From NCBI GenBank assembly GCA_019310425.1, contig JAFDEI010000018.1:1-45422 (forward strand): a DNA stretch of 45,422 bases, given 5' to 3'. The stretch's first letter is position 1; each line of letters starts with the position of its first letter. The stretch is from Deltaproteobacteria bacterium. Its GTDB lineage: Bacteria > Myxococcota_A > UBA9160 > SMWR01. The notes beneath the pieces are model-generated. The model was not told where the DNA came from, ran no database searches, and saw only the letters and a list, made by a program, of their open reading frames with translations. Positions 8,662-41,727 of this stretch are shown here, in pieces. A program made the translations under genes and the position numbers.

Positions 8662-10982
8662 TTGGACGGAAGGGCGAGTAGACTCTGGGCCCGCGTGCTC
8701 GCGCCGTTCGCCTTGTTCGTGCTGGCGCTCGCGGTTCGAGCCCTGCCCGCACAAGAAATCCTGGTCTGAAGGGCGCACGCTCTTCTTCGGGAATGACGCC
8801 TACTATCACATGCGTCGGATCCTCTATTCGGTCGTCCATTTTCCGAAATCACTCGTCTTCGACCCCTACATCAATTTTCCGGATGGTGGGCAGGCGATCT
8901 GGACGCCGTTCTTCGACTGGAGGGAGCATCGCGCTGCTGCTCCGGCCGCTACTCGGAAGCGTCGAACCGCTCCAGCTCGAACGGATTGCCGTCTGGGTCC
9001 CCCCATTCCTCGGTGCTGCGACCGTCGTCGCGAGTTATTTTCTCGCGCTCCGGTTCTTTGGTGTCGCGGTTGCGCTGATTTCGGGCGGCGTGCTGAGCGT
9101 AATGTCGGGGCATTTCTGGTACTCCCAGATCGGTTTTGTCGATCACCACGCCGCAGTGGCGCTTGCAGCGACCGGCGTGATCGCAGCCGGCATGCTGCTG
9201 CTGGCGGCAGATACCGAAGCGCCGAGCAGCCCGCGCAACCCCTGGACGAGCGTGTTTGCGATGGGTGCTGCGTACGGCGTCGCGCTGCTGCTGTGGCCTG
9301 GAATGCTGCTCCACGTGGCCCTGGTGGAGGTCGGGCTGCTCGTGCACCTGCTCGGACTCGCACCCCGCGACGCGGCGATCAGGTTCGTCGGTCGGCTTGC
9401 GGCCGTGCACGCGGTTGCATTCGTGCTGCTGTTGCCGTTCGGGTTGACGAGCAGCTGGGTCGTGTGGAGTCGCTTCAGCCCGGTCGTGTTGTCCGTGTTC
9501 CAACCGTGGTACTTCGGCGCCGCAACGCTGTTCTGTCTGTCGTGCTTCGCCTGCTGGCGCATGGGGGTTGGGTCGGAGACGCGCGCGAGTCGATTCCTCA
9601 CCGCCGTCGGGGTCGCGGCGGTGGTGCTGGGAGTGAGCGCATGGCTTCTCCCAGGTCTGGTGATTGCGTTCGGAGATGCGTGGGAGTGGTTCGCCAAGCA
9701 AGACAGTTTTCAAGCGCAAGTGGCGGAATCAAAGCCACTGTTCCTGTCCCGCGACGGATTCATGCTCGACGCCGCGGTGGGATACCTCTCGACCTTTTCG
9801 TTGCTGGTTCCGATCGCTTTGGGAGTCGGTTTCGCGACGGCTCATCGCCGCCTGGATCACTCGGCGATTCGTTTGTTTCTGTGGTGGAGCCTCGGTCTAT
9901 GTGCGGCCACGGTCTTCCAACGGCGCTTTTTCAACTCGGCGTCGGTGTCGGTCGCGCTGCTGTTCGCGCTCAGCTTCCGAGGTGTCTACGCGCGCCTGCC
10001 GGAGCTGCTTCGAGGCCGGCCATGGACGAGACGAATTGCCAAGGCAGTACTCGTTGCGTGCGCGATCTTCCTGTTGCTGCCGATGCGGACAAGCTACAGC
10101 GATCACCTTGCGAACGTCGCGGCCGGCCTGAGGGGTGAGAGCCCGAGCTCCAGTGCGGTAACACGCAGGAAGATCACGATGGTTCGGATGGGAAACTGGA
10201 TTCGTACCCGCACCCCCGAACCTTCCGCCTGGCTCGATGCGGATGCCCGGCCCGCCTATGGAATTCTCGCTCCGTGGACGATCGGACATCTGCTCGAATA
10301 CGAAGCACGACGTCCGACGGTCGTGACCAACTTCGGGGATGACATTGGCCGCAAGAATTTTCTGCTTGCGCGGCGTTACTACCAGAGTGAAGAGGGTCCC
10401 GCGGCAGAACTGCTCGACCGACTACGGGTGCGTTACGTGATTGCGCAGGAGGCTCCGAACTACCTCGGAGAGGATCCGCTTCCGAACTCGATGTTCTTCT
10501 CGCTCTTTCGCGACGATGGGTCGGGCTTCGAAGGGGACGGAACGGATCGCACCAATCCGGATCTGCCGGCGCTCGAACGACATCGATTGATCTACGAGTC
10601 ACCGCCGAGAGTGCGAACCGATCCACCGAGCCGTTCCATGTTCAAGATGTTCGAGTTCGTACCAGGCGCGAATGTCGTCGGACGTGCGGCGCCCGGGGCG
10701 CGGGTTCGTGTGACGCTCCGGCTGCGAAGCAACCGCCAACGCGGGATCGACTATACGGTGGAATCCGTCGCCTCCAGGTCGGGCGAATACAGGTTCAGGT
10801 TTCCCTACGCGAATCGCGGCGGGCCAGGCGCGGTAAAGGTCGGAGCCGCCTACCGATTCGAGTGTCGCGGCGAGGTTGCTAGCCTGACGATCGAAGAATC
10901 CGCCGTCGCGAGCGGGGCGATGGTCGAGGGGCCGGATCTCTGCCTGCCGGAGTGGGGGGTCTCGGGGTCGGGAGCCCACTGA
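8662..10982 (+). CDS. STT3-like oligosaccharyltransferase, two frameshifts near the N-terminus
   Basis: Translation pieces join into one protein of about 770 residues. A first membrane segment starts at about the TTG at 8662 (FALFVLALAVRALP). Then, after a frame change near 8767, come the luminal-loop motif FFGNDAYYHMRRI and PDGGQAIWTPFFDW. After a second frame change near 8920 the main body begins (SIALLLRPLLG) and is open to 10982. STT3 features are the loop-1 acidic residue in NDAYYH, the GFVDHH segment (second acidic motif) and about a dozen membrane segments followed by a soluble C-terminal domain. The position of the WWDYG signature reads YGILAPWTIGH, so the acidic D is missing from that motif. 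The presumed role is transfer of a lipid-linked glycan to protein outside the cytoplasm. The two shifts mean either a defective gene or sequence errors; the body from 8925 to 10982 is certain to be coding-like. Confidence 0.75.
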
Positions 10983-27101: not shown

Positions 27102-29154
27102 GTGAAGATTCCGTTCGCCGCGCTGTTGCAACCCACGCGCTTTGACGACGAGGCGCAGGATCTCCGCGCCGCGACACTTCATCTCGCGTTGTTGGTGCTG
27201 ATCGGCGGTGGGGTGGCCTGGGCCGCCGTGACCATGTTGCAAGACGACGACCCGAGTACACGGATGGTCCTCGTCGCGGCTGGACTCGCGGCCGAGGTCG
27301 TGGCGCTGATCGTGCTGCGCCGCCGACACCCGGGACTCGCAGCGGGGTTATTTGATGTTGACGGTTCTGTCCGGGGTGCTGATGGGAGGACGTGGAGCCA
27401 TCGTCGGTGGCGTACTCGCATTCTCGGCGGTGCAGTGGCTGAGCTACGCGGAGTCTCAGGCGTGGCTTCCCGAACCGCGATTGATGGAAAGTGGTGTCAT
27501 GCCGGTGATGCTCGTTGTTTCATTCGCTTCGGTAGCCCTGTTTCTATATATGGCCGACCGCAATCTCCGGGGCGTGTTGCGCGAACGGGCCGACCAACGC
27601 CGAGAAATCGAGGCCAGTCGCGAGCGCTACCGTGTGCTGACCGAGAATACGGTGGCACTGGTCTCCGAGCTCGATTCGGCGGGGCAGATCCTCTACGTGA
27701 GTCCGCAACACCGGGAACGGCTCGGCTGGGACCCTGAGGAGCTGGTAGGGCATCCGGCCGCCGAGTTCGTGCACCCCGACGATCAGGCGCTGTTGGTCTC
27801 GTCGATGCGCCGTATCCTCGAAAGTGGTGAACCCATCACCACGCGTTACCGGGTGCGGGCTCGAGACGGAGAGTGGCGGCATCTCGAGAGCGGCGGGCGT
27901 GCCTACACCGCCTCCGACGGTTCGATCCGGATCATTGTCGTCAGCATGGACTCGAAAGAGCGGGTTCGCGCCGAGGCCGCCTTGCAGGAGGTCGAGGCGC
28001 AGTTGCGGATCTCGCAACGGATGGAGTCGCTCGGCCGCCTGGCAGGGGGTGTTGCGCATGACTTCAACAACTTGTTGACCGTCATCCTGGGGTCGGCGCG
28101 TTGGCTGGAGCGCCATCCGGATCTCCCGCCCGAGGAGGTCCGGGAGTTTGCTTCGGGGATCGTACAATCGGCTCAGCGATCCGCGGATCTCACACGCCAG
28201 CTGCTCGCGTTCAGTCGCAAGCAGGTGGTGGAGACCTGTGTGCTCGATCTCGATGAGAGGATCGACGATCTTGCGCGAATCTTGAAGAGTCTGGCTGGTG
28301 ACGAGATCAATCTCGTCACCGTGACGCATCCGGGGCGGCATTTCGTCGAGGCTGACCCGAGTCAGATCGAGCAGATCGTCGTCAACCTGGTTGCCAACGC
28401 CTGCGATGCGATGCCGAAAGGTGGCACGGTGTCTATCCACACCGGGAAGGCACGGATCGGGGAACACGACGGGGCTGAGTTGCCGGCAGGTGAGTATGTA
28501 CGCCTCGAAGTCGAGGACGACGGCATCGGAATGTCGCAAGCGACGCGCTTGCGGATCTTCGAGCCGTTCTTCACCACGAAGGAGATGGGTAGCGGAACCG
28601 GTCTCGGTCTATCGACGGTTTACGGCATCGTCAGCCAGGGTGGCGGCCAGATCCGTGTGAATAGTGAGCCCGGGCAGGGCTCCCGCTTCCAGATCTTGTT
28701 GCCGCTCGTGGAGCAGCCCACCTCGGTGCCTGATCTGGAACATCGGGTGGAGCCGACGGCGAGCGGGCGCGGCGAGCGACTTCTGCTCGCTGAGGACGAG
28801 CCTGCGGTGCGGCAGTTCACGCGGCGGCTGCTCGAGGAGGCGGGCTACTGCGTGACTGCGGTCTCGAACGGCGTCGAGGCACTCGAGCGGATGGGCGAAT
28901 CCGATGAGGAGTACGAACTGCTCGTGACCGACGTTGCGATGCCTGAAATGGGTGGTGTCGAACTTGCGCAACGCTGCACGGAACGCGACTCTGGATTCCC
29001 GGTAGTCTTCGTCTCCGGATACACCGATCCGGAACTCGCGAAGGAGGGCCTGCGGATCGCGCGAAGCCGCTGGCTGAAGAAACCGTTCGCACCCGAGGAA
29101 CTGCTTGCGCGGGTGCGGCAGCTGCTCGACGCAAAGGCGCAGGGGGTCGCATGA
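27102..29154 (+). CDS. Hybrid sensor histidine kinase with receiver domain, N-terminus frameshifted
   Basis: The first part starts at the GTG at 27102 (GAGGAA 7 bp upstream) and gives two membrane helices, ending at HPGLAAGLF near 27348. The frame then changes, and from 27352 the protein continues with [18 protein letters not shown] and more membrane segments to residue ~75. About one membrane segment seems to be missing at the joint. The rest is intact: a PAS domain ([29 protein letters not shown]), HisKA with the phospho-acceptor His in [14 protein letters not shown], HATPase_c ([24 protein letters not shown]), and a C-terminal receiver with acceptor Asp in [13 protein letters not shown] and Lys in WLKKPF. 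It has no DNA-binding output. Its stop overlaps the AOR start (ATGA), so the two are translated together. The shift is either damage or sequence error. Confidence 0.82.
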
Positions 29155-31034
29155 TCAAGGGATACGCCGGACGGATTCTCGAAATCGATCTCGCCAATTG
29201 CAGCTTCGCCTTCAAGCCGCTCGACGAGGCGATCGCTCGGCTCTACATCGGTGGCAAGGGCTATGGAACCCGGTTGCTGTATGACCGGACCCCGGCGGGC
29301 ATCGATCCGCTCGGACCCGACAATCCGTTGATTTTCGCGACGGGCCCGCTGAACGGTTCGGTGGCCCCGCAGAGCAACCGCTTTGCGGTGGTGTGCAAGA
29401 GCCCGCTCACGGGCGGTATCGGCAACGCGACCTGTGGCGGGTCGTTCGCACTCGGAATGAAGAAGGCCGGTATCGACATACTGATCGTCGAGCGCTGTGC
29501 CGCTGCTCCCATACGCATCGAGATCGACGGTGATCGCGACGAGGTGCTCTTTCACGACGCCGCCGAACTGTGGGGCAAGGGAACCTACGCGACTCAGGAG
29601 TGTCTCGGGAAGAAGCAGCACCACGCGGTGATCGGTCCCGCAGGTGAGAATCAGGTGCTTTACGCGGGAATCGTTTCGAACGAGCGGATCGCGGGTCGGA
29701 CCGGTGTCGGTGCGGTCATGGGTTCCAAGCGGCTGAAGGCCGTGAGCGTCCAGGGCTCGCGCAAGCTCGACATGGAGGATCCGGAAAAGTTCAAGGAATA
29801 CACGATAGAAGTCCGAAAACTATTCAAGGATCATCCGGTTTTGGGTAATAGCATGAAACGTTTCGGAACCGGGGCGATCGTCAATACCGCCAACGCGCGC
29901 AACATCTTGCCGACACGGAACTTTCAACGCGGCTCGTTCTCGGAGGCGATGAAGATCTCGGGCGAGTACCTGGAGGACCACGAACTTCGCGGTGTGAAAT
30001 CGAGCTGCATCCACTGCCCCGTGACGTGCGGCCGCGATGTCGATGTCGAGGGGGTCGGGCGCGTGAAGGGCCCGGAGTACGAGACGCTTGCGCTGATGGG
30101 GTCGAATCTGGAGATCGGGAACCTGAAGAGGATCTCGGAATGGAACTACCTCGCTGACGACCTCGGGATGGACACGATCAGTCTCGGCGCATCACTCAGT
30201 TTCGCGATGGAGCTACACGAACGCGGCGTCCTCGATGCCGGAATCTCCTTCGGAGATCCCGAGGGCGTGAGTGAGCTGATTCGCGACATCGGGCATCGCC
30301 ACGGAATCGGCGACGATCTCGCGAACGGAACTCGCCGCATGAGCGAGAAGTACGGTGGTGAGGAGTTCGCGATGCACGTGAAGGGGCTAGAACTCTCTGC
30401 CTACGATCCGCGCGGTTCATTCGCCCAGGGGGTCGAATACGCGACCACGAACCGCGGGGGCTGCCACGTTCAAGGTGCGAGCATGTACATGGAATCGGTG
30501 GGTCCACTGACGATCAACCCGCAGAATCTGAAGCTGAAGGCCGACATCCCGGTGGTGCAGCAGAATCTCGCATGCGCGATCAACTCGATGGTTCTCTGTA
30601 TCTTCACGACCTACGGGATCATTCCCAAGGCGGTCCACGAGATGAATCCGAATTCACTCCGTTATCGGGCGCTCGCTCTGGCGTTCGAGAACATGGGGCC
30701 TCTCTTGCGTACCGCAATGGGGATGAAAGGGCCGCCGATGCTGTGGTTCGAAAAATGGCTCAGCTACATCACCGGCAGCAAGTTCTCGGGTGGCCATCTC
30801 CAGGAAATCGGTGCGCGGATCTTCAACCTCGAACGGATGTACAACCTGCGCGAGGGGTTCACGGCGGCGGACGACACGCTACCCGATCGGATCCTTCACG
30901 AGTCGACATTCGAGCACATGCAGAGCGGGCATCCACTTGGACAGTTGCTTCCGAAGTACTACAAGAACCGCGGCTGGGACACGCAGGGCGTTCCGACCCC
31001 GCGCACTCTGGAGCGCTTGCAGATCCGGATTTGA
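29151..31034 (+). CDS. Aldehyde:ferredoxin oxidoreductase (tungsten pterin enzyme)
   Basis: A 627-residue protein of normal AOR length. The N-terminal tungstopterin-binding region is clear: YIGGKGYGTRLLYD, ATGPLNGSVAPQSNRF and GGSFALGMKKAGIDILIVE. The iron-sulfur cluster Cys are at 286, 289 and 293 (CIHCPVTC), with a fourth probably in ACAINSMVLC. By family it oxidises aldehydes (or related carbonyls) to acids, passing electrons to ferredoxin, in the cytoplasm. Its start overlaps the upstream kinase stop by 4 bp. A MoaD/ThiS-like gene follows, as often seen for tungsten enzymes. No dedicated ferredoxin-type subunit gene is adjacent. The exact substrate class (AOR, benzoyl-type or other) is not visible. 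Confidence 0.92.
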   Translation: MIKGYAGRILEIDLANCSFAFKPLDEAIARLYIGGKGYGTRLLYDRTPAGIDPLGPDNPLIFATGPLNGSVAPQSNRFAVVCKSPLTGGIGNATCGGSFALGMKKAGIDILIVERCAAAPIRIEIDGDRDEVLFHDAAELWGKGTYATQECLGKKQHHAVIGPAGENQVLYAGIVSNERIAGRTGVGAVMGSKRLKAVSVQGSRKLDMEDPEKFKEYTIEVRKLFKDHPVLGNSMKRFGTGAIVNTANARNILPTRNFQRGSFSEAMKISGEYLEDHELRGVKSSCIHCPVTCGRDVDVEGVGRVKGPEYETLALMGSNLEIGNLKRISEWNYLADDLGMDTISLGASLSFAMELHERGVLDAGISFGDPEGVSELIRDIGHRHGIGDDLANGTRRMSEKYGGEEFAMHVKGLELSAYDPRGSFAQGVEYATTNRGGCHVQGASMYMESVGPLTINPQNLKLKADIPVVQQNLACAINSMVLCIFTTYGIIPKAVHEMNPNSLRYRALALAFENMGPLLRTAMGMKGPPMLWFEKWLSYITGSKFSGGHLQEIGARIFNLERMYNLREGFTAADDTLPDRILHESTFEHMQSGHPLGQLLPKYYKNRGWDTQGVPTPRTLERLQIRI

Positions 31035-40519: not shown

Positions 40520-40713
40520 GCTGCGGCTTCCAACTCTCGTGGTCCGGCGGGCGATTCCAGCTTGCTGCGCGTTGGCCCACCACCCGATCCTCGGGCGGTG
40601 GGCCTGGGTATCGACCATAGCCGCTGCAGTGATCATCGGAAGAGCAGTCTGTCAGGAGTCCGATTCGGGCAGACCGTCCCGGAGCGATATACTGCGTCCG
40701 AGTCGGAGGGAAG

Positions 40714-41727
40714 ATGCGAGCCGAAGCCGTCCCGCGAAGGAGCCCCGAGGAGATCCGCGAATTGCGTGCGAAGCATGGTGACGTTCGGCTGCTCGACGTC
40801 CGCACCCGCGATGCCCGCGAGCTTCATCCGCAGGCAGTTCCCGGTGCCGAGTGGGTTCCCCTTGCCGACGTGGTCGAGTACGCGCGCTCTCTGCCTCGCG
40901 ATATTCCGCTCGTCACCTATTGCACCTGACCCGAAGATGCGAGCAGTGCCCGTGCGGCACTGTGGCTCAGCGCCGAAGGCTTTGGGGGTGTCTGCGTGCT
41001 GGCGGGCGGTCTCGACGCCTGGCTGAGTTCCGGACTCCCGGCTGTCGAGGTGGACTTCGGGGTGCAGCCCGACGTGGCGCGTGGAACCGTAGCGGACCGC
41101 AACGTGGCTTCCGATTCGGGCGTGGCGCATGCCAATGCGTTCCTGCCGAGTCTGGTCGAGCACTATGTCGAGCGCAGCGATCTGCCGCTGCGGCGGGAGC
41201 TCACGGTCCTGTTCGTCGACATCGCGGATTCGACTCCGCTGATCGTCCAGCGTGAACCGGAAGCAGCCCTCGCGCTGGTGCAGCGATTCATGGAGGCCGT
41301 CACCGAGGTGGCGCTGTCCTTCTGCGGCGATGTGAAAGACTACGAGGGTGACGGGGCGATGCTGTACTTCGAGTCGGTGACCGAAGGCGTCCAGGCCGCG
41401 TTCGCGATTCGCGAGCGGATCGCCGTGCAGCCTGCGGATGACGTGCGCCTGCACGCGCGCCTGAGTCTCGATGTCGGCAGCGTCGTGATCGGGATCATCG
41501 GCAGTCCGATGCGGCGTTCGGTGGCCCTGATCGGTCCGAGCATCAACCGGGCCGCGCGAATGCTGAAGGAGATTCCGCCGGATGGCATCATTGCGACCCA
41601 CGCCGTCGTCGATCGCCTGAATGCGGAGACTCCGCGCCTGGCCGGGCGTTTCGCGCCGCTCGATGCACCCCTGGTGTTGAAGGGCTTCGAGCAGGAGGTC
41701 GTCAACGCCTACTCGGCTCGGGACTGA
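40714..41727 (+). CDS. Rhodanese-class III nucleotidyl cyclase fusion, candidate selenoprotein (in-frame UGA at 40927)
   Basis: Read through the UGA at 40927-40929 as one amino acid, the protein is 337 residues. Residues 1-105 are a rhodanese domain: SPEEIRELR, LLDVRTRDARELH, VPGAEWVPL, then VTYC-T-U-PEDASSARAALWL and VCVLAGGLDAWLSSGLP. Relatives have Cys where the UGA stands (CTCP form), two codons after the predicted catalytic Cys70. Residues ~165-337 are a class III adenylate/guanylate cyclase domain: TVLFVDIADSTPL (metal Asp), DYEGDGAMLYF (second metal Asp) and SLDVGSVVIGIIGSPMRRS with INRAARM. The ATG at 40714 follows GGAGGG. A SECIS-like hairpin lies just after the UGA. If UGA is a stop, the gene is broken into a 71-residue fragment and a cyclase starting at an internal GTG (40996). 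Joining sulfur/selenium chemistry to cyclic nucleotide production is inference. Confidence 0.8.
40941..40968 (+). promoter_or_regulatory. Bacterial SECIS-like hairpin after the in-frame UGA
   Basis: The upper stem is CAGTGCC (40944-40950) paired with GGCACTG (40956-40962), a perfect 7 bp, with the 5-nt loop CGUGC. A short lower stem GAG/CTC (40941-40943 with 40966-40968) is separated by a 3-nt bulge on the 3' side that contains U. The loop begins 21 nt after the UGA, within the 16-37 nt window described for bacterial SECIS elements, and has G in its second position, with GU as in the E. coli fdhF loop. It lies wholly within coding sequence, as bacterial SECIS elements do. Confidence 0.7.

Follow-up and report, generated by a model that had tools for sequence, protein, structure and literature searches.

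A predicted selenocysteine-containing rhodanese fused to a class III nucleotide cyclase domain in a deltaproteobacterial genome

The stretch of DNA analyzed here, referred to as the window, comprises 45,422 nucleotides of contig JAFDEI010000018.1 from a Deltaproteobacteria bacterium (assembly GCA_019310425.1). Toward its end lies a gene whose frame contains a single internal stop, the TGA of codon 72, which is preceded by 71 codons and followed by 265 open codons and a terminal TGA (Table 1). This terminal TGA is a genuine stop. Elsewhere in the window, a 729-amino-acid protein with matches to AglB/STT3 oligosaccharyltransferase domains is encoded at 8793-10982, and an aldehyde ferredoxin oxidoreductase with AFOR N and C domains, a member of a family of tungsten enzymes, at 29151-31034.

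Table 1. Features of the rhodanese-cyclase gene and positions in the window
Feature	Position	Strand	Basis or remark
Predicted selenoprotein CDS, 337 aa, Sec at residue 72	40714..41727	+	rhodanese, linker and class III cyclase; frame, Pfam, orthologues
Candidate Shine-Dalgarno GGAGGG, 3 nt upstream of ATG	40705..40710	+	sequence
Rhodanese domain, residues 11-105, unbroken across UGA	40744..41028	+	Pfam PF00581, AlphaFold2 (AF2)
CTU motif: Cys70 (TGC), Thr71, predicted Sec72 (TGA 40927-40929)	40921..40929	+	directly precedes helix 73-87
Candidate bSECIS hairpin within the coding sequence	40944..40962	+	stem 40944-40950/40956-40962, loop CGUGC 40951-40955
Low-confidence linker, residues about 122-148	41077..41157	+	pLDDT below 50; least conserved segment
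Class III nucleotide cyclase domain, residues 162-305	41197..41628	+	Pfam, alignment, Foldseek

The initial annotation, made from the sequence alone, had described a rhodanese-to-cyclase frame open but for this UGA, with flanking residues fitting a rhodanese and Cys expected where the UGA stands, and the present analysis bears out these points. When the TGA was read through, Pfam returned a rhodanese match that spans it (PF00581, 37.8 bits against a gathering threshold of 22.2, E 2.7e-9), together with a cyclase match (PF00211, Guanylate_cyc, 27.9 bits against 21.9, E 2.1e-6). The AF2 model, for which 23 window and locus sequences were aligned, had a mean pLDDT of 86.5 and consisted of two well-predicted domains and a linker of low confidence, which is presumably flexible. 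The rhodanese domain reached a pLDDT of about 90 or more across most of its length, with Cys70 ending strand 66-69 and residue 72 immediately ahead of the following helix. The top Foldseek matches of the model were class III cyclases, the first being CyaC (1wc0, E 2.3e-15).

The active-site stretch of the rhodanese half reads CTUPED and contains a C-x-U motif (C70-T71-U72). Usual rhodanese active sites are Cys-loops ending in Gly or Arg, from which CTUPED departs, and sulfurtransferase function of this half is putative. The in-frame UGA aligns with a conserved redox Cys, the site being occupied by Cys in the DedA-rhodanese homologues of G364 and of Proteobacteria and by TGA in 11 sequences.

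Downstream of the UGA, a hairpin was found as initially described, with the 7-bp stem CAGTGCC/GGCACTG (7-8 bp), the 5-nt loop CGTGC and G at loop position 2; it begins 14 nt past the UGA, with 21 nt between UGA and loop. For the 42 nt that follow the UGA, the minimum free energy (MFE) was -16.8 kcal/mol. Every part of the published bSECIS model is satisfied, namely a loop of 3-9 nt, a stem of 4-16 bp, G in the first two loop positions, a distance of 16-37 nt from the UGA and an MFE at or below -7.5 (PMC13188914). The accompanying argument that a random nonsense mutation would be unlikely to bring such a hairpin is not strong by itself, since a compliant hairpin of at least 7 bp follows about 10% of all positions in the window (64% GC). 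Similarly, the published rule was passed by 33% of codon-usage-matched synonymous versions of the stretch, the exact 7-bp stem occurring in 2%. The hairpin in one sequence alone is thus weak evidence, the rule being loose in GC-rich DNA, and an Rfam search over it gave no SECIS match, only a below-threshold chance match to a microRNA.

The comparison of homologues is more informative, as the TGA is conserved and the stem covaries between genera, which raises the hairpin well above chance. The rule was satisfied by all 11 TGA-bearing rhodanese sequences versus one of eight Cys homologues. Across the 11 sequences, 94.8% of the hairpin pairs were formed, compared with 83.8% in shuffles and 18-58% with slid partners, although the 11 rows are related and the shuffle counts are not probabilities. 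Three stem pairs have changed on both sides; these changes are compensatory and partly synonymous, and a C-G/G-C exchange at columns 18/36 falls on third codon (wobble) positions. A different 8-bp stem, shifted in register by two columns, is present in genome G017 and also passes the rule.

Full-length fusions were found in three genomes, representing three genera of one family: the window genome, G005 (JAJDAM010000182.1) and G016. They are about 58% identical, and in each the TGA of the aligned codon is the only internal stop, so that close homologues keep the full-length frame, a point that the initial annotation had proposed to check. The same architecture is present in G017, from another family of the same order, where it is split by an assembly gap and the TGA lies in YCLUTGETSSSR. 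G017 is a one-contig genome with 100-N gaps, in which the two halves of the gene (L055 and L025/L059) lie about 125 kb apart, overlap in FLPRIAGQTFLEGRELP and show a few differences after the overlap, which may reflect mis-scaffolding or two copies. Because other assemblies carry the same TGA, a sequencing error appears implausible as its source. At the thresholds used, no fusion with a Cys or truncated rhodanese was found in the 91 genomes of the class or the 379 of the phylum. Outside the phylum, genomes were scanned once with a degenerate pattern, the sole match being the G005 record, and plasmid and viral searches yielded no full-length fusion. The three fusion loci share no synteny beyond the gene itself, and their neighborhoods give no hint of function or signal. 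In the rhodanese-domain tree, the three full-length fusions group together (98/95), while their placement relative to the DedA forms and G017 was not separated; the tree is compatible with one or more Sec origins for the DedA and cyclase fusions.

Selection past the UGA was another proposed check. Between orthologues, the 38 codons after the UGA, i.e., the remaining rhodanese, had a dN/dS of 0.15-0.32 and 58-68% amino acid identity, versus 0.30-0.53 and 41-45% upstream of it; conservation is highest in the cyclase domain (0.12-0.24 and 68-75%). Although these ratios are rough, being Nei-Gojobori estimates with synonymous distances near saturation, the comparison indicates that the frame downstream of the UGA is constrained at least as much as that upstream. 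This bears on the reading of UGA-72 as a true stop, which would leave a short rhodanese fragment and a cyclase with a start of its own (GTG 40996 or later), as a pseudogene or as two genes. Such a split is what gene callers would give, an ORF from GTG 40996 does exist, and G005 has an ATG four codons past the UGA; however, in the window genome and G016 the 22 codons from the UGA to the first GTG, ahead of any possible restart, have low dN/dS and include some of the best conserved of the rhodanese (PEDASSARAALWL). Moreover, rhodanese homology carries on across the UGA, the stem covaries, and in no orthologue is the TGA replaced by TAA, TAG or a truncation. A true stop is accordingly considered very improbable.

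The machinery for Sec insertion, likewise suggested for checking at the outset, is all present in this assembly (4.9 Mb, with a completeness of 91%), where selA (514 bits, cut-off 268), selB (289 bits, cut-off 242), selD (327 bits, cut-off 125) and tRNA-Sec (72.9 bits, cut-off 47) were all detected. A tRNA-SeC with anticodon TCA was independently called by ARAGORN. The SelD of this genome (L062 about 1305-2231, G000:C197) has an in-frame TGA within GGUARK and is itself a probable selenoprotein. At the strict threshold, selB was not found in G016, G013 and G017, whose genomes are 68-84% complete. Since selA is nearly universal in the class (84 of 91 genomes score above cut-off), finding it together with the TGA genes has little discriminating power. 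On contig C195, the rhodanese match close to selC is probably an ordinary MoeB-rhodanese protein.

The complete Sec machinery also speaks against the idea that the UGA is read as Trp, Cys or some other residue through leaky decoding or a code change. Such decoding would suit a frame that is open whatever TGA stands for, but the same gene terminates in TGA, Cys occupies the site in homologues and a conserved bSECIS follows it, which leaves this idea with hardly any probability. Taken with the alignment, covariation and selection data, comparative genomics strongly supports decoding of UGA-72 as Sec, which is regarded as highly probable: SelB and tRNA-Sec would decode the codon, with the downstream hairpin as guide.

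Rhodanese selenoproteins of the CxU type are already known. The family was listed as 'form 3' (NF041203, rhodanese_LYCAU, TKB26178.1; PMC13188914, Table 1) and named 'COG0607 form 2, CxU' in another study (PMC9312934). It shares with the window protein the domain and the C-x-U pair, with Sec two residues past the catalytic Cys, and NF041203 is also the best NCBIfam match of the window protein (59.8 bits at full length, E 2.1e-16; 63.7 bits for the domain alone), although both scores fall short of the 115 bits set as its curated cut-off. In contrast to this model, which covers only the rhodanese domain (126 positions), the window protein adds a C-terminal cyclase. The initial claim of a new selenoprotein is therefore better put as one of a new architecture, namely the fusion to a cyclase, since the domain type had been described before.

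Other fusions of related domains offer useful comparisons. The 'DedA family protein/thiosulfate sulfurtransferase GlpE' fusion contains a homologous rhodanese with the active-site motif Y-C-x-C/U-P-x-E, but the rhodanese lies C-terminal to a DedA membrane domain and no cyclase is present. Its Cys form was found in Xanthomonas, Burkholderia and Pseudomonas plasmids and its TGA form in sister genomes, the latter being a predicted second CxU rhodanese architecture in the class. In L066, L069, L070, L071 and L073 (genomes G044, G073, G087, G074 and G089), the TGA lies in YC[T/A]UPNEASSAR and is accompanied by a bSECIS-compliant hairpin; the upstream DedA frame of G087 looks broken. The two of these proteins that were scanned scored 70.6 and 78.3 bits, under the NF041203 cut-off. 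A further TGA-bearing rhodanese, L072 (G072), is also interrupted by an in-frame TAA in the part of the domain upstream of the TGA and may be a decaying gene or an assembly error. Besides these, the TsoB rhodanese/DsbD fusion-like selenoprotein (NF045694) also joins a rhodanese to another domain and contains Sec, with a UxxxxU motif and a DsbD-like partner (PMC13188914); the window protein gave no match to its model at E 1. The fusion to a cyclase is missing from an inventory of 2026 that covers 119 families of selenoproteins; this lists no nucleotide cyclase, and the word 'cyclase' does not appear in its text. No rhodanese-cyclase or selenoprotein-cyclase fusion was found in searches of mostly open-access literature.

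In the cyclase half, the three complete orthologues all retain the metal-binding Asp residues D169 and D213 and the transition-state residues N278 and R282, as in CyaC of Spirulina platensis (1wc0) and CyaB of Pseudomonas aeruginosa (3r5g), which have the same fold. These two enzymes differ from the window protein in their base-recognition residues and in their partner, which is not a Sec rhodanese. The base-recognition positions are occupied by D209 and A271 in all three complete orthologues. Canonical pairs are Lys with Asp/Thr for ATP and Glu with Cys or a similar residue for GTP, neither of which is present here. In G017, His replaces the catalytic Asn278. Because of these non-canonical residues and the His of G017, cyclase activity is putative, as is its cyclic-nucleotide product.

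Rhodaneses hold sulfane sulfur on the active-site Cys, and class III cyclases act as dimers. The joining of a CxU rhodanese to a cyclase that acts as a dimer suggests a redox or sulfane-sulfur switch. The rhodanese half would be the sensor, in which Cys70 could take up sulfane sulfur or become oxidized, and Sec72 would resolve it through a selenenylsulfide or Se-S exchange, or by faster reduction. A change at the Cys70-Sec72 pair might then alter dimerization or activity of the cyclase half, and a cyclic-nucleotide signal would thereby be linked to the state of redox, sulfur or selenium. The sensory function, which way control runs and which cyclic nucleotide would be formed are all inferred here, and a selenoprotein in which a rhodanese sensor controls a cyclase by this full mechanism is at best moderately probable. 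A serious rival, though a less probable one, is that Sec is inserted and the rhodanese half works as a redox or sulfurtransferase enzyme, while the cyclase half is degenerate, being non-catalytic or merely nucleotide-binding, so that no cyclic-nucleotide signal is produced. The unusual base-recognition pair, the substitution in G017 and the occurrence of rhodanese-DedA fusions devoid of any cyclase would be in keeping with degeneration, whereas retention of all four metal and transition-state residues in the complete orthologues and the strong conservation of the domain argue against it.

A working sensor-cyclase would place selenium in the sensor of a cyclic-nucleotide signaling enzyme, whereas most selenoproteins of prokaryotes are enzymes of redox and energy metabolism, and it would provide a testable link from selenium or sulfur status to second-messenger output. 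It is possible, and proposed only tentatively, that the protein is the first Sec-dependent second-messenger enzyme, in which a CxU rhodanese sensor switches a class III cyclase according to redox, sulfane-sulfur or selenium state, perhaps with unusual nucleotide specificity.

Automatic annotation will split the rhodanese-cyclase gene, and the putative sensor half is then lost. In addition, with the Sec trait nearly universal across the 91 genomes of the class, the annotation of these genomes is likely to have missed or split other selenoproteins.
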